From contig JACDOF010000001.1 of assembly GCA_017656235.1 (NCBI GenBank), positions 744,001-808,000 on the forward strand: DNA of 64,000 nt. Direction: 5' to 3'. The stretch comes from Brevibacillus sp. Its GTDB lineage: Bacteria > Bacillota > Bacilli > Brevibacillales > Brevibacillaceae. Position 1 is the first letter of the stretch, and every line of letters starts with the position of its first letter. Below are positions 5,001 to 15,588 of the stretch, one piece after another. The notes under the pieces were generated by a model that searched no databases, was not told the origin of the DNA, and saw only the letters and a program-made list of their open reading frames with translations. A program made the translations under genes and the position numbers.

Positions 5001-5029
5001 TTTACAAGGGAAGAGAATTGTGTTAATAT
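5001..5029 (+). promoter_or_regulatory. Sigma-A promoter of the HTH-TPR regulator gene
   Basis: TTTACA (5001-5006) and TAATAT (5024-5029) are separated by exactly 17 bases. Transcription would begin near 5036. That rules out the upstream in-frame start codons and points to one of the GTG codons at 5059, 5062 or 5071. Confidence 0.65.
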
Positions 5030-5061
5030 TTTACATAGAAAAATGGAATCGGTTTCGGGTG

Positions 5062-6369
5062 GTGAAATCGGTGGCGGCGGTCAAAGGTGCGATCCCATAC
5101 ACGACGATCGGGGAAATTGTTAGAAAATACAGAGAAAAATCAGGGTTGACCCTGGCGCAGCTGGAGCGGCAGACAGGTGTGAGGAAGGGAGTCATCTCCA
5201 AGATCGAAAACGGCGAAACGAAACGACCGGAGTTAAAAACGATCCAATCGTTGTCAGGTGCACTCAACATCTCATATCAGGAGATCGTCAAGTATTACAT
5301 AGAGATAGAAAAACGGATTGACGTTTTACAGGAATTGCTGCTGCAGACAATCCCGCTGGCCAACCTCTCCCTGCTGGAAGCCGTGGCGCTCAAGATGCTG
5401 GAATCGCCTTATCAAGATACCTATACGGCATTGGAACGACTGTATCAACTCGCCAATACGATAACCCATACCGAAAGCAAACTCACTTTGTACAACCTGA
5501 TGATTCAATATTCCAGAGAGCGCGGGGTACCGCAGTTCATCGCGAAAGGACTGCTGCAAAAATACTTGATTGAACGTCAGGATCTGAAGCGGTTGGAAGA
5601 ATCGTATCGGATTGGTGAGGAACTCTATCATTACAAAGACTTTTTGTCTGTGAAGGAGCAGACAATCTTTTACTTCAGAATGGCCCTTCATGCCCATAAT
5701 ACAAAGAAATACCAGGACTGTATCAAGTTTTGCGAAGCGGGGCTCAAGCTGGAAACGACAGAGACCGAATTGAAAGCCAGAGCGTATTTGGCAATGATCA
5801 ACGCGTATTATTTTTTAGAAGAATATGACGCAGCAGAAAAGCATCTGGAAGTGTTTGAACATTTCCCTTTTGTGTTTGTTCGAGATGCAGCCAAAATAAC
5901 ACGGGCTTGTGTAAAAGCAAAAAAACGACAATTCAACGAGGCAATTACGATCTTACAAGCATGTATGCAAGAGGTTGGTGAGGAGCTCAAGATCCATGCT
6001 GCAAACGAACTGCTCGATATTTATTTTCAACTGGAAGATTGGGATTCCATAGCGAAGTTGGTAAGGAACGATGAGGAATTACTGCTTTCTAATCCGCAAA
6101 CTCCTTATAAGCACGTTTCCATTGGAAAGTACTATCAATGGAAAGGGAGTTATTTATTAAAAGCGGGTGAGATTGACGAGGGAATTGAGAGTTATGTAAA
6201 GAGCTTGAAATCGTATGGAGAGGTCCTCGCATTGCAAGAAATTATTGCCTGCATCAATGACATTTTTTTATACTTTAGACAGAACAAATTTCCAATAGAG
6301 ACACAGTATGTTGAAAAACTTGGACAGGTGTACAACAGCATAGCTGAAAAGATATTAAGTAAGAGGTGA
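5062..6369 (+). CDS. HTH-TPR transcriptional regulator, RRNPP-type peptide-pheromone receptor candidate
   Basis: About 435 residues. An N-terminal XRE-type helix-turn-helix (roughly 15-75, with LTLAQLERQTGVRKGVISKIENG) is joined to a long all-helical region of tetratricopeptide-like repeats, such as the DAAEKHLEVFEHFPF and YYQWKGSYLLKAGEIDEGIESY segments. This is the build of NprR/PlcR-like regulators, which bind a short secreted and re-imported peptide through the TPRs. The adjacent 49-codon exported peptide gene at 6375 supports that reading. The start is uncertain: it was placed downstream of the promoter at 5001-5029, with GTG 5062 chosen among 5059, 5062 and 5071. The gene is visibly AT-richer than its neighbours, suggesting separate acquisition. 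Confidence 0.85.
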   Translation: MKSVAAVKGAIPYTTIGEIVRKYREKSGLTLAQLERQTGVRKGVISKIENGETKRPELKTIQSLSGALNISYQEIVKYYIEIEKRIDVLQELLLQTIPLANLSLLEAVALKMLESPYQDTYTALERLYQLANTITHTESKLTLYNLMIQYSRERGVPQFIAKGLLQKYLIERQDLKRLEESYRIGEELYHYKDFLSVKEQTIFYFRMALHAHNTKKYQDCIKFCEAGLKLETTETELKARAYLAMINAYYFLEEYDAAEKHLEVFEHFPFVFVRDAAKITRACVKAKKRQFNEAITILQACMQEVGEELKIHAANELLDIYFQLEDWDSIAKLVRNDEELLLSNPQTPYKHVSIGKYYQWKGSYLLKAGEIDEGIESYVKSLKSYGEVLALQEIIACINDIFLYFRQNKFPIETQYVEKLGQVYNSIAEKILSKR

Positions 6370-6374
6370 TGGTA

Positions 6375-6524
6375 ATGGTAAAGAAGATGATCGTCGTTTT
6401 GTTTCTTGTCCTATGTTTTCCTTTGACGGTTACAATTACAAGTCAGATTGGGGAGGGTGCGACAAACAATACCAATTCATCCCCATCAAAAGTCGTACCG
6501 TATGTGGTTGATCCAGGGCATTGA
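6375..6524 (+). CDS. Short exported peptide, candidate Phr/NprX-like pheromone precursor
   Basis: A 49-codon frame starts five bases after the receptor stop. AGAGG lies eight bases before ATG 6375, and an in-frame ATG at 6369 overlaps the receptor stop. The peptide has a basic start (MVKK), a hydrophobic core (IVVLFLVLCFPLTV, residues 6-19), a polar Asn/Ser-rich linker, and ends in SKVVPYVVDPGH. That is the layout of RRNPP pheromone precursors: Sec-type signal, linker, and mature peptide at or near the C-terminus. The mature peptide would lie within the last 5-12 residues. The role is inferred from architecture and position. Confidence 0.75.
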   Translation: MVKKMIVVLFLVLCFPLTVTITSQIGEGATNNTNSSPSKVVPYVVDPGH

Positions 6525-6602
6525 TAATCACAAACGTTCTGAGACGCACAAGTGATATTTAACATTTTGATTCCCCACATGACCACCAAGGTGACGCATA
6601 AG

Positions 6603-6650
6603 AAACATCCCGTCCCACTGTTACAGTGAAACGGGATGTTTTCATTCATT
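6603..6650 (+). terminator. Terminator of the receptor-peptide operon
   Basis: AAACATCCCGT (6603-6613) pairs with ACGGGATGTTT (6631-6641). An inner CACTG/CAGTG stem extends the hairpin, and T-rich sequence follows. Confidence 0.85.
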
Positions 6651-6795
6651 TTTGGCCTTGGGTCGAGTCGAGCTTGTTGAGTAAGGTTTCATCCCAGCGA
6701 TTGACATCTGCCCAAAAGTTTCGGAAAATTAAGTAAAAACAGCAGTGAGAGCGCTATCAACCGGTTTTATGATTAATCGTGTAGGAGGGCAAAAG

Positions 6796-10032: not shown

Positions 10033-11049
10033 GTGAATTTGCTGGAGATTAAAGACCTGCAGACGAAGTTTCGCACCGACGATGGTGAAATCACGGTGTT
10101 GGACGGGGTAAACCTGCGGATAAAAAAAGGCGAAACGGTCGGAGTCGTCGGTGAATCGGGCTGCGGCAAGAGTGTCACCTCCCTGTCGGTGATGGGACTG
10201 CTCCCTCCGATTGCGCGCATCAGTCAGGGGGAGATCCTGTTCAAAGGGAAGAACCTGCTTCAGCTTTCCCGCGATGAGATGCGCAAGGTACGGGGAAAAG
10301 AGATTGCGATGATTTTTCAGGAGCCGATGACCTCGCTTAATCCCGTGTACACGATTGGATCGCAAATCGTGGAGCTGGTCGTCAACCACACCGACATGAA
10401 CAAACGGGAAGCAAAACAGCATGCGGTCAACATGTTGAAGCTGGTAGGCATTCCGCGGGCTGAGCAGATTGTGGATGAATACCCGCATCAACTGTCCGGT
10501 GGGATGCGGCAGCGGGTGATGATCGCGATGGCCATGTCCTGCAACCCCGACCTTTTGATCGCGGATGAACCGACAACAGCGCTGGACGTGACCATTCAGG
10601 CACAGATACTGGATCTGATGCGGAAGCTGCAGCAGGAACGGCAGATGACAATCATGCTGATCACCCACGACCTTGGCGTCGTAGCCGAGATGTGTGACCG
10701 GGTGGTAGTGATGTACGCCGGTCAGGTGGTTGAAGAGGCTGACGTGGAAGAGCTGTTTGAGCGGCCCAAGCATCCTTATACCATCGGCCTGCTCGGTTCG
10801 ATTCCCGACATGGACGAGGAACGGGAGTACTTGTATTCGATTGGCGGTTCCGTCCCCAGCCCCGGCCAGATGCCGAAAGGATGCCGTTTTGCCGATCGCT
10901 GTTCGCAGGTCATGGAGATCTGCCGAAACCAGGCTCCTCCTGTCGTGGAGTGGGATGGTGGAACATCCTGCAGATGCTGGCTGTACGATGAGGGCCTTCA
11001 GGCAAACCAAAAGAGCACTTCACAGATGAGGGAGGAGGGGGCCAGGTGA
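10033..11049 (+). CDS. Oligo/dipeptide ABC transporter ATPase, OppD/DppD type
   Basis: 338 residues. Walker A is GESGCGKS (about residues 40-47). The Q-loop is [10 protein letters not shown], the signature is LSGGMRQR, and Walker B is [12 protein letters not shown]. The C-terminal peptide-transporter extension has CRFADRC and CRNQAPP cysteines, which in this family can hold an Fe-S cluster. It powers uptake with its partner ATPase and the permeases below. The start is GTG with AAAGGGGGG upstream. It overlaps the following gene by four bases (GTGA). Confidence 0.93.
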
Positions 11050-12035
11050 CAACTTCGGACGTTCTCTTGGATGTAAAGGGATTAAAGAAATACTACCCGA
11101 TCAAGAGCGGATTTCTAAAGAAGACGACTCATTACGTAAAAGCCGTTGATGATATCTCCTTCTCCGTCCACAGCGGTGAAACGCTGGGCATCGTCGGTGA
11201 ATCAGGCTGCGGCAAATCGACAACGGGACGAGCCCTGCTCCGGCTGATTGAACCGACGGCAGGAGAGGTAATCTACAAGGGCGTAAACCTGGCCAGTCTC
11301 TCCGACGCGGAAATGAGGCGAAAGCGAAAAGATTTACAGATCATCTTTCAGGATCCGTTTGCCTCGCTCAATCCGCGGATGACGGTGGGAGAGATCATTG
11401 AGGAACCAATGGTCATCTTCAACCTGTACGGCGGCGAGTCAGGGCGTAAACAAAAAGTGGCCAGGCTGATGGAAGAGGTGGGACTGAAGCCCGAACATAT
11501 GGAACGCTTTCCGCATGAGTTCAGCGGCGGTCAGCGACAGCGCATCGGAATTGCCCGCGCACTGGCCCTTGAGCCAACGTTGATCGTAGCGGATGAGCCC
11601 GTCTCTGCACTCGATGTCTCCATCCAATCACAGGTACTGAATCTGATGAGAGACTTGCAGAAACAATACGGCCTTACCTACATTTTCATCTCGCACAATC
11701 TGAGCGTGGTCAAGCACTTCTGTGACCGAATCGGCGTGATGTATCTGGGGCGGATGGTGGAACTTTCTCCAAAGCGGGAGCTGTATCAGGAGCCGCTGCA
11801 CCCCTATACCCGTTCGCTTTTGTCTGCTGTCCCGATTGCCAAACCAAAGGCCAAACGGGAACGCATCATTTTGTCGGGCGATGTGCCCAACCCGGCCAAT
11901 CCGCCCAGCGGCTGTGCGTTTCACACCCGCTGTCCTGACTGTATGGACATCTGCAAGGTGGAAAGACCGTCGTTTGTGCCAATGGGGAATGGCAGGTATG
12001 TAGCCTGTCATCTGTACACTAATGGGGGCGGATGA
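11046..12035 (+). CDS. Oligo/dipeptide ABC transporter ATPase, OppF/DppF type
   Basis: 329 residues with Walker [19 protein letters not shown]-loop [14 protein letters not shown], signature [15 protein letters not shown], Walker [12 protein letters not shown] and H-loop FISHNLSVV. The C-terminal peptide-family domain keeps the [14 protein letters not shown] cysteines. It forms the heterodimeric ATPase with the preceding protein. The GTG start overlaps the upstream stop and is well served by GGAGGAGGGG. Confidence 0.93.
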
Positions 12036-12089
12036 CGGCTTCCATATATACCAACCATGAAGTGACAAAAAGAATAGGGGGACTCTTCA

Positions 12090-13673
12090 ATGAAGAAGCG
12101 CATTGGTCTGTTATTCTGCTCACTCCTGCTTGTGATGGGGACGATTTTCGCAGGCTGCTCCGGTCAATCGGAGACCGGAGGTGAACAGAACCCCGGACAA
12201 GCAGCGGATCAACCGGTCGCCAGCGGTAAAAAAGGAGAATTGACGATTGGGGTGGTAGGTGATCCGCACTCCTGGGATCCGATTGATACCTTCCTGCTGG
12301 ACTGGAGTACGATTGCCACCTCTGTGTTTGAGGGACTTGTAGAGCGTACGGTCGATCTCAAGATTCAGCCTGGACTGGCAGAATCCTGGGAGTTTACAGA
12401 CGACAAGACGCTGCAGTTCAAACTGCGCAAGGGGGTTACCTTCCACAACGGTGAACCGTTTAACGCGGAAGCAGTCAAGTTCACCTTTGACCGGCTGCTG
12501 GGTGAAGAAGGGGCAAAAGGGCCGCAGCAGGCCAACTATGCTTCCATTGACCGCGTGGAAGTTGTCGACGAGTACACCGTCAATATGATTCTGAAAGAAA
12601 AGGACCCGGTTCTGATCACCAAGCTCGCCGGATACGGTGCGGTCATCGTCCCGCCCAAATACATCCAGGAAAAGGGAGACGAGTACTTTAACACCCACCC
12701 GGTGGGAACCGGTCCGTTCAAAATGGAAAGCTACGAAAAAGACAACCAGGTCGTGCTCGTGAAAAACGAGAACTACTGGAGAGAGGGACTGCCCAAGCTG
12801 GACAAAGTGACGTTCCGCATCATTCCGGAAGCAACGACCCGTCTGGCCGAACTGAATACGGGTGCAATCGACATCATGAAAAAAGTGGAAATCAGCCAGG
12901 TCTCCTCGGTTGAGAAAAATGAGAACCTCGAACTGATGACGGTCGGTTCGCCAACCGTATATGCCATTCGTTTCAACACCAAGATGAAACCTGTGGACGA
13001 TGTGAGGGTTCGTGAGGCAATCGCCCATGCCATTGACGTCGACCTGTTGATCGAAACCATTCTCGGCGGGTACGGCAAACGGATTAACACCTTCCAGAGC
13101 GACATGTCCTTTGGGCACGACCCGAGCATTCCGCTGCGGGAGTACAATCCGGAGAAGGCCAAGCAGCTGCTGGCTGAAGCAGGGGTAAAAGAAGGAACAG
13201 AGCTTGAATTCTACTTCCCCGGAACCGATGCGACGTTTAAGGAAATCGCGCAGGCGGTGGAAATCCAATTGGCCGAGGTGGGCCTCAAAGTCAAGCTGAA
13301 CCCGGTGGATAACTCCACGTTCATCTCTGAGTTGATTCCGAACGGCAAGGCAGGTCACATGTACCGCCAAGGTTGGGGTGGTTGGACCCTCGACTTTGAC
13401 AACACGGCCTACCTGATGTACCACAAAGGTGAATTCTGGAATCCGGATTTCTACGATGAAAAAGTAGAAGAACTGCTTGCGGCAGAACGCTCCACGTTTG
13501 ACCAAGACAAACGTTTGGAAATCTTCAAAGAACTGGACAGACGCCTGTATGAACTGGTGCCGGAAGTCCCGCTCTATCAATCCATTAACCTGTGGGCCGT
13601 CAACAAGCGCGTCAAAGGATTCCAGCCACCTGCCGATGAGCGAATCGATTTGAAAGAAGTGACGGTCGAATAA
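12090..13673 (+). CDS. Peptide-binding lipoprotein of the ABC importer (OppA/DppA type, SBP family 5)
   Basis: 527 residues. A lipoprotein signal peptide ends in IFAGC with the acylated Cys at 23, followed by an acidic linker. The body carries family-5 solute-binding marks such as VFEGLVER and LRKGVTFHNGEPFNAEAVKFTFDR, and the VGTGPFKMESY segment. It captures peptides outside the membrane and delivers them to the permeases. A long hairpin at 13687-13717 separates it from the permease genes and may favour higher binding-protein expression. Confidence 0.93.
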   Translation: MKKRIGLLFCSLLLVMGTIFAGCSGQSETGGEQNPGQAADQPVASGKKGELTIGVVGDPHSWDPIDTFLLDWSTIATSVFEGLVERTVDLKIQPGLAESWEFTDDKTLQFKLRKGVTFHNGEPFNAEAVKFTFDRLLGEEGAKGPQQANYASIDRVEVVDEYTVNMILKEKDPVLITKLAGYGAVIVPPKYIQEKGDEYFNTHPVGTGPFKMESYEKDNQVVLVKNENYWREGLPKLDKVTFRIIPEATTRLAELNTGAIDIMKKVEISQVSSVEKNENLELMTVGSPTVYAIRFNTKMKPVDDVRVREAIAHAIDVDLLIETILGGYGKRINTFQSDMSFGHDPSIPLREYNPEKAKQLLAEAGVKEGTELEFYFPGTDATFKEIAQAVEIQLAEVGLKVKLNPVDNSTFISELIPNGKAGHMYRQGWGGWTLDFDNTAYLMYHKGEFWNPDFYDEKVEELLAAERSTFDQDKRLEIFKELDRRLYELVPEVPLYQSINLWAVNKRVKGFQPPADERIDLKEVTVE

Positions 13674-13686
13674 AAGAACTGGATAA

Positions 13687-13717
13687 GAGGGGATAGAAGG
13701 CTCTCTTCTATTCCCTC
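13687..13717 (+). other. Intra-operon stem-loop between binding protein and permease genes
   Basis: GAGGGGATAGAAG (13687-13699) pairs with CTTCTATTCCCTC (13705-13717), a 13-bp stem with one wobble and a five-base loop. No T run follows, so it is not a full terminator. Such hairpins after binding-protein genes commonly stabilise the upstream mRNA and dampen downstream expression. Confidence 0.75.
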
Positions 13718-13744
13718 AAATCGTTTGGGAGAAGGGGGATGGCG

Positions 13745-14680
13745 ATGACAGCTTTTATCGCTCGACGGATTGTGCACAGCCTGTTTGTCGTGCTGGCGAT
13801 CACGGTGGTCATCTTTGTGCTCGTTCGTCTCACCGGCGATCCGGTAGCCGTGATGTTTCAGTCCGGCGAACCGACGGCGGAAGCAATCCAGGAGCTGCGC
13901 AAAAACCTGGGGCTGGATCAGCCGATCTACATCCAGCTCGCGATCTATGTAAAAGACATGCTGACCGGCAACTTTGGCACTTCATTCCGGACAGGGGAAA
14001 GTGTCTTCAGCATGATCATGGAAAAGATGGGCGCAACCCTGCTGCTGGCCTGTGGCGGCATGCTGACCGCACTGCTGATAGCCCTTCCGGTCGGGATTTT
14101 GTCTGCGGTAAAACGAGGCAGTGCCATCGACTTTTTTGGACGTATCTTTTCGCTGCTCGGCATTTCGTTCCCCAACTTCTGGCTGGGGATCATGCTGATC
14201 ATCATCTTTGCTGTCCACCTGAAGTGGTTTCCCGCCTCCGGCTATCAAGGGCCAGAGTATCTGATCCTGCCTTCCGTTTCGTTGGGATTGATTTTGTCCG
14301 GGATTCTGGCTCGGCTGATCCGTTCGTCGATGCTGGAAGTACTTAATCAGCAGTACATTACAACAGCCCGTTCCAAAGGCATCAAGGAATGGATGGTGAT
14401 TATCAAGCACGCCCTGCGCAATGCGCTGATTCCGACGGTGACGTTTATTGGATTGCAGTTTGGTACTCTGTTGGGCGGAACGGTGATTATCGAGCAAGTG
14501 TTTTCCTGGCCGGGTGTCGGGCGTTTGGTGATTGACGCGATTTCACAGCGCGATTTTCCGGTGATTCAAGGATCGGTCATCGTCCTGGCTTTTTTGATGA
14601 TATTGGTCAATTTAGTGGTGGACATCAGCTATGGCTTCATTGATCCGCGCATCAAGCAAGGGGGAGGGAAAAGCGAATGA
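13745..14680 (+). CDS. Peptide ABC transporter permease, DppB/OppB type
   Basis: About 311 residues with six predicted membrane helices. Family marks are the N-terminal RRIVHSLFVVLAITVVIFVLVRLTGDPV and the EAA loop ITTARSKGIKEWMVIIKHALRNALIP that contacts the ATPases. ATG 13745 was preferred to ATG 13739 because the GAAGGGGG ribosome site abuts the latter. It ends in an ATGA overlap with the second permease. Confidence 0.93.
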   Translation: MTAFIARRIVHSLFVVLAITVVIFVLVRLTGDPVAVMFQSGEPTAEAIQELRKNLGLDQPIYIQLAIYVKDMLTGNFGTSFRTGESVFSMIMEKMGATLLLACGGMLTALLIALPVGILSAVKRGSAIDFFGRIFSLLGISFPNFWLGIMLIIIFAVHLKWFPASGYQGPEYLILPSVSLGLILSGILARLIRSSMLEVLNQQYITTARSKGIKEWMVIIKHALRNALIPTVTFIGLQFGTLLGGTVIIEQVFSWPGVGRLVIDAISQRDFPVIQGSVIVLAFLMILVNLVVDISYGFIDPRIKQGGGKSE

Positions 14681-15588
14681 CGACAGCGGTAGCGGAAAAA
14701 CCTGTTCCCAACTCGCCAAAGCCAAAAAGAAGCAAATGGGGAAAACTGCTTCGTCGTTTCTTGCGCAATCCCGGAGCGATGATCGGGATGCTGTTGTTGG
14801 TGCTGACCGTGGTGGCAGCCGTCTTTGCTCCGTTCATTGCGCCGACGGATCCCGATCAGGCAGACCTGCGTGCCCGGTTGGCGCCGCCATCCTGGCTGGA
14901 TGAAGAGAGCGAATCGACCCATCTGTTGGGAACGGATCAGGTGGGGCGCGATCTGCTGAGCCGGATTATTTACGGTGCAAGAGTTTCGTTGATGGTGGGA
15001 ATCTTATCCGTCCTGATTTCCATGGTGATTGGTGTCATCCTGGGCTTGATCGCCGGTTTTTACGGCCGGTGGGTGGATGATGTCATTATGCGGCTGGCCG
15101 ATGTACAGCTTGCTTTTCCCTTTATTTTGTTTGCGATTATCGTGATGGCGATCTTCGGCGCCGGTCTGTGGAAGCTGATACTGGTATTGGGGATCAGCAA
15201 CTGGGTTGGTTTTGCCCGATTGGTTCGCGGACAGGTAATGGCTGTAAAAGAGATGGAATACGTGCAGGCAGCGCGGGCGATTGGCGCGACCAATCTGCGG
15301 ATTATCTACAAACATGTGCTGCCAAATGTGATGTCGTCCATCATCGTGCTGGCTACCCTGAACGTAGCCGTCAACATCTTGCTGGAAGCCTCCCTGACAT
15401 TTATCGGAATGGGGGTAGATCCTTCCATCCCGGCCTGGGGGGGCATGCTGGCCGATGGCCGGAATTACATTGAAACGGCCTGGTGGGTTGCCACCTTCCC
15501 CGGTATCGCGATCATGATTACCGTGTTAGGTTTCAACCTGCTGGGTGACTGGCTGCGTGACGAACTGGACCCCAATCTGCGGGCCTAA
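14677..15588 (+). CDS. Peptide ABC transporter permease, DppC/OppC type
   Basis: 303 residues. It has the DppC N-terminal segment with RRFLRNPGAMIGMLLL, the HLLGTDQVGRDLLSRIIYGARVSL motif typical of this subunit, and the EAA loop VQAARAIGATNLRIIYKHVLPN. It pairs with the DppB-like protein to form the channel. ATG 14677 overlaps the upstream stop. Confidence 0.94.
   Translation: MTTAVAEKPVPNSPKPKRSKWGKLLRRFLRNPGAMIGMLLLVLTVVAAVFAPFIAPTDPDQADLRARLAPPSWLDEESESTHLLGTDQVGRDLLSRIIYGARVSLMVGILSVLISMVIGVILGLIAGFYGRWVDDVIMRLADVQLAFPFILFAIIVMAIFGAGLWKLILVLGISNWVGFARLVRGQVMAVKEMEYVQAARAIGATNLRIIYKHVLPNVMSSIIVLATLNVAVNILLEASLTFIGMGVDPSIPAWGGMLADGRNYIETAWWVATFPGIAIMITVLGFNLLGDWLRDELDPNLRA

Follow-up and report, generated by a model that had tools for sequence, protein, structure and literature searches.

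RRNPP-type peptide signalling systems are recognized by five criteria, namely propeptide size, propeptide secretion, receptor size, a TPR domain and the adjacency of the two genes (PMC10075063). The AloR-AloP system was described in Paenibacillus polymyxa by Voichek et al. (2020), and Brevibacillus was named among the AloR hosts (PMC7425212). In the Alo13 pair, the receptor activates spo0E and the peptide shuts off spo0E expression (PMC7425212). Bernard et al. (2023) reported two systems from a plasmid of strain LMG 15441, one AloR-AloP and one from a new group, cluster 8 (PMC10075063). These authors also noted that some phage systems have Spo0E and AbrB as neighbours.

A cassette with a receptor gene and a small peptide gene was analysed in a 64,000 bp stretch of a Brevibacillus sp. 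genome (contig JACDOF010000001.1, positions 744,001–808,000), referred to below as the window; all positions are those of the window unless another contig is named. In all likelihood, this cassette is a two-gene signalling system of the RRNPP type, that is, one with a cytosolic receptor.

Organization of the cassette

Reading of the sequence and its ORFs showed that the module is located on the plus strand and consists of the receptor gene, a gap of 5 nt and a gene for a peptide of 49 aa (Table 1). The initial annotation had described a receptor gene followed after five bases by a tiny peptide gene, with a common promoter and terminator, in a module that is AT-richer than its surroundings. This layout was confirmed, since a promoter-like site is located upstream of the two genes and a terminator-like hairpin downstream of them, and the GC content of positions 5071–6524 is 43.1% vs 55.2% for the window, which places it in about the lowest 1% of stretches of equal length.

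The mechanically called receptor ORF begins far upstream, and the GTG codon at 5020 falls inside the promoter-like site. The receptor start must therefore be located 3' of this site. The GTG codon at 5071 is the likely start, as judged from the resulting length of 432 aa, which matches that of the homologues; positions 5059 and 5062 are possible. TTTACA-type elements were enriched 5' of homologous receptors (4.75 per kb vs 0.72 per kb in receptor bodies), and an upstream element of this type was present at 43 of the 74 receptor loci. The hairpin contains GTTTTC in its 3' arm and is followed by ATTCATTTTTGG; despite this terminator-like appearance, it was absent from the output of a simple terminator scan.

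A complete oligopeptide/dipeptide ABC importer (two ATPases, a binding protein and two permeases) is encoded at positions 10033–15588, 3.5 kb from the cassette. It is a possible route for the re-import of a pheromone.

Table 1. Features of the cassette and their positions in the window
Feature	Position (bp)	Strand	Basis or remark
Promoter-like site TTTACA-17-TAATAT, TG before the -10 element	5001–5029	+	Predicted to serve the two-gene operon
Receptor gene, 432-aa XRE-type HTH and TPR-like regulator	5071–6369	+	Stop TGA 6367–6369; predicted start
HTH_3 DNA-binding domain	5119–5286	+	Pfam E = 2.3e-12, residues 34–89 of P0001
TPR-like helical domain, predicted peptide-binding superhelix	5317–6354	+	TPR_2, AlphaFold2, Foldseek
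Ribosome-binding-like sequence AAGAGGTGAT of the peptide gene	6361–6370	+	Sequence; overlaps the receptor stop
Propeptide gene, 49 aa, MVKKMIVVLFLVLCFPLTVTITSQIGEGATNNTNSSPSKVVPYVVDPGH	6375–6524	+	ATG 6375, stop 6522–6524
Signal-sequence-like N-terminus, basic start followed by a hydrophobic core	6375–6443	+	Hydropathy
Putative pheromone region, C-terminal VVPYVVDPGH	6492–6521	+	[DN]PG[HYFW] ending in 47/70 family peptides
Hairpin, probable transcription terminator of the operon	6602–6642	+	MFE z-score -2.9 for 6525–6660

Receptor protein and propeptide

The receptor length lies in the range of 250–500 aa used for RRNPP receptors, and its homologues mostly have about 415–450 aa. The TPR_2 match was weak (E = 9.7e-5, under the Pfam cut-off). 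Modeling with AlphaFold2 on an alignment of 11 rows led to an all-helical model with a mean pLDDT of 88, and Foldseek placed this model among TPR superhelices, with the PlcR-PapR-DNA complex and AimR matched at E < 1e-3. AimR-AimP (arbitrium) and PlcR-PapR thus resemble the cassette in combining an HTH and helical-repeat receptor with a C-terminal peptide pheromone. They differ from it in their peptide codes, and neither was found in the PDB sequence searches at the cut-offs used. Run with the protein and with a profile of 11 rows, these searches yielded HTH proteins and generic consensus TPRs as their sole matches and revealed no sequence homology to Rap, NprR, PlcR or AimR along the TPR region. 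The RNPP_C domain (PF18768) had no match in the genome that contains the window. In phages, the same protein family is represented by phrog_32768, which the receptor matched over residues 25–443 (E = 1.4e-126); the PHROGs annotation gives no function for it and does not mention the peptide gene.

The propeptide, whose length is inside the RRNPP range of 10–100 aa, ends in SKVVPYVVDPGH. A basic and then hydrophobic N-terminus was found in all 70 family peptides, as judged by hydropathy alone. The C-terminal consensus of the family is (V/I)-K-(P/Q)-Y-(V/T)-x-D-P-G-(H/Y/F/W), and the mature pheromone is probably formed by the last 5–10 residues, with a cleavage site that can be placed only provisionally. 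A literature search for DPGH as a published pheromone found no paper.

Distribution of the receptor family and its peptides

A six-frame protein search was performed in the genome of the window and 58 others (59 in total). Homologues were found in 28 of these genomes, 27 of which are relatives, and all of them belong to the family of the window's host. Full-length homologues are 29–57% identical to the window receptor, which therefore has no close orthologue (best identity, 57%). The number of matches in a genome reached 17, including partial ones and ones interrupted by stop codons. A single-protein scan of genome contigs revealed no relative, and when 399 genomes were sampled across the class, every match at E ≤ 1e-25 belonged to the window's family. 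A search started from a homologue on a Paenibacillus larvae plasmid detected remoter relatives in 17 of 250 genomes, all from one genus and a single clade of Paenibacillus. Members of the family are carried by chromosomes, plasmids and phages alike, a distribution typical of RRNPP systems.

Many homologous receptors are fragmentary or contain internal stops (in G012, G014, G018, G009 and other genomes), which suggests that cassettes are gained and lost rapidly. The location of the cassette is not conserved between species.

According to the initial annotation, the proposal would fail if homologous receptors lacked a small ORF downstream or if the small frame were not conserved at codon level. 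Neither was the case. An adjacent downstream small ORF of 33–59 aa accompanies 70 of the 74 distinct receptors from Brevibacillaceae genomes, plasmids and phages. The [DN]PG[HYFW] ending was found in 47 of these 70 peptides vs 3 of 4,011 other ORFs of 28–80 aa at the same loci, a background measured because the rule for picking peptides favoured DPG endings. All three background ORFs look like further secreted peptides, and one of them, behind the receptor of locus L095, is counted among the 70. Codons of the family peptides are under purifying selection, with a pooled pN/pS of 0.38 over eleven close pairs; the window's own peptide was left out of this estimate for lack of a close orthologue. 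A few close pairs gave a pN/pS above 1, which rests on very few changes. The family-wide conservation indicates that the cassette is more than a chance arrangement.

The C-terminal classes of the peptides (PG-aromatic/His, PxG and W-end) were scored on the receptor tree. They need 8 changes, whereas shuffled labels need 20.8 on average and at least 17. The classes thus follow the receptor clades, which indicates that peptide and receptor change together. An alignment of nine rows proved too divergent for a pattern search.

Relationship to AloR-AloP and cluster 8

Membership of the AloR-AloP family was assumed at first, as the Paenibacillus homologues also precede Spo0E. It would agree with the common gene order (HTH-TPR receptor, secreted propeptide and often a Spo0E-like gene), with the similar sizes of the products and with the presence of Brevibacillus among AloR hosts (PMC7425212). 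The location of AloR13 ruled this assignment out, and the cassette is almost certainly not an AloR-AloP system. The published AloR13 start primer was located in 13 genomes. At locus L232, the peptide encoded downstream carries the AloP13 tail exactly as published, SYFHNITIGNGSQITVSSHGRGG, and its receptor belongs to the BRLA_RS22620 type (45%), a different receptor family; the matches to a degenerate SHGRGG pattern were all unrelated. The window receptor matched the located AloR13 over the HTH region alone (21% over 108 aa), below the AloR homology criterion of ≥30% identity over 80%, and no kinship to AloR receptors was detectable beyond this region. Peptides of the AloR-AloP (BRLA_RS22620) type end in xHGxGG, whereas those of the window family end in DPG[HYFW]. 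In addition, the AloR type was found in 117 of 250 Paenibacillaceae genomes and the window type in 17 of 250, all of one genus.

Both receptor families are located side by side on the plasmid pBRLA33 of B. laterosporus LMG 15441. In the window-type pair (receptor WP_003338811.1), the peptide ends in ..DYDPGY; in the neighbouring BRLA_RS22620-type pair, it ends in ..YEHGVGG. Since the AloR-type pair of this plasmid is now identified, the window homologue next to it should be the cluster 8 system of Bernard et al. (2023; PMC10075063). By this elimination, the subfamily of the window receptor very probably corresponds to cluster 8 of RRNPP_detector. The hosts agree (Paenibacillaceae in the NCBI sense), as does the occurrence on chromosomes, plasmids and phages. 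Cluster 8 is a computational prediction, and the DPG[HYFW] code is not spelled out in the main text of that paper (PMC10075063). The suggestion that the pair may be undescribed is thus to be narrowed: the receptor subfamily has very probably been predicted, and no experimental work on cluster 8, either functional or with a peptide, was found in the literature.

The genome of the window also contains the AloR type as two tandem receptors (G000:C3:102190–105307; loci L008, L144 and L159), and the peptide of the copy at C3:102190–103551 ends in ITYDHGVGG. Both receptor families are therefore present in this genome.

Genes adjacent to the cassettes

A same-strand ORF with a Spo0E motif was found up to 1.6 kb downstream in 21 of the 74 loci (about 28%), and no such ORF was found on the opposite strand. 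All six Spo0E-like neighbours tested matched PF09388. Spo0E is also located behind the receptor homologues in Paenibacillus. In the window's own genome, a paralogue (G000:C4:112857–114107; loci L002/L009) encodes a receptor 45% identical to that of the window and an overlapping peptide, MRSKWTAIMLLLVTILLFPPQSSEQQNWLHQKPEIILFLDDPGH, which ends in ..EIILFLDDPGH, followed by a Spo0E-like gene (PF09388). Two cassettes from two species of the same genus (loci L092 and L093, genomes G001 and G002) are located between rsmI and metG, both identified by eye from the sequence, and face abrB, which is encoded on the other strand about 0.5 kb 3' of the receptor.

An element, GTCGWAWWTTGTA, was found between the peptide gene and the Spo0E gene at 8 of the 21 Spo0E loci (L086, L050, L051, L052, L058, L065, L066 and L101) vs 0 of 48 loci without Spo0E, and it was absent from 96 kb of receptor coding sequence. 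It is somewhat similar to a Spo0A box and can be regarded as a candidate operator. A search for operator dyads returned the TTTACA promoter element 5' of the receptors and no convincing palindrome that this region shares with the Spo0E promoters. The window copy has neither an abrB neighbour nor the GTCGWAWWTTGTA element, no Spo0E-like gene was found within 1.5 kb of it, and no other obvious target adjoins it. The target of this copy therefore appears to lie elsewhere, possibly in the regulon of its paralogue.

Proposed mechanism and alternative explanations

The RRNPP-type reading proposed in the initial annotation is well supported: the receptor has an HTH domain and an all-helical TPR fold that stands with PlcR and AimR among TPR proteins, and the adjacency and codon conservation of the peptide gene agree with it. 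One promoter would drive both the HTH-TPR regulator and the 49-aa propeptide. The propeptide would be exported by the Sec pathway and trimmed outside the cell to a short C-terminal pheromone ending in ..YVVDPGH, which an oligopeptide permease would take up again. Its binding in the TPR superhelix may alter the DNA binding or the oligomeric state of the regulator and so change the transcription of target genes, with either sign of regulation conceivable. By likeness to Alo13, the family probably controls the dosage of Spo0E, and it probably tunes Spo0A phosphorylation via the adjacent Spo0E-like phosphatase.

The regulator may be real while the small ORF encodes a hydrophobic leader, a holin-like protein or a type I toxin peptide rather than a pheromone. 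The product is indeed short and hydrophobic and is encoded directly 3' of the receptor, and its export is a prediction. However, the most conserved part of the peptides is the polar DPG[HYFW] C-terminus before the stop and not the hydrophobic helix, the start is basic and signal-like in every family member, and the C-terminal classes track the receptor clades, so that this explanation is very improbable. A role of the cassette in regulating the gene immediately 3' of it, which encodes an acyl-CoA synthetase, is somewhat less remote and still distinctly unlikely. It was suggested by a distant cassette of the family in another genus (L225 in G007:C26; 34% identity, peptide end PDPEW), which is located directly 5' of the orthologous synthetase gene. 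But this receptor and that of the window sit in different receptor clades, the hairpin separates the two transcription units, and the synthetase gene has its own promoter (TTGACA-17-GAAAAT), which is kept in two relatives that have no cassette there.

The same conserved promoter would also fit a cassette stranded at this site as a remnant, with intact genes, a lost Spo0E target and little function. The lack of a nearby Spo0E-like gene and the fast turnover of cassettes, including several homologues with internal stops and unconserved locations, agree with such an origin. Against it, the two reading frames are intact, as are the promoter-like site and the hairpin, and no Spo0E neighbour was detected for the closest homologue from outside (L085) either, so that members of the window's clade may normally act at a distance. 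We consider a remnant rather unlikely, and a functional RRNPP-type pair is preferred. A more specific picture has about an even chance of being correct: a distinct, Brevibacillaceae-centred pheromone-receptor family on chromosomes, plasmids and phages, with a DPG plus His/aromatic code that covaries with the clade, which would act mainly on the Spo0A phosphorelay via adjacent Spo0E-like phosphatases, the window copy standing alone with a target in trans and cross-talk with its paralogue.

For a receptor family that reaches 17 full or partial matches in a Brevibacillaceae genome, the analysis yields a predicted pheromone sequence with its consensus code and cognate receptor, and a pathway that is likely to run from Spo0E to Spo0A and sporulation. 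The clade-wise shifts of the peptide C-terminus form a natural series for studying the evolution of signal specificity. The same cassettes are also found on phages and plasmids of these hosts, in some cases together with a Spo0E gene of their own; mobile elements may therefore read or drive the sporulation decision of the host.

Receptors of the window type and of the AloR type are located side by side not only on pBRLA33 (L039) but also in the phage SecTim467 (L041), where a Spo0E gene lies between the two types. The receptor region of this phage was called a putative transposon by its describers (PMC4909266).
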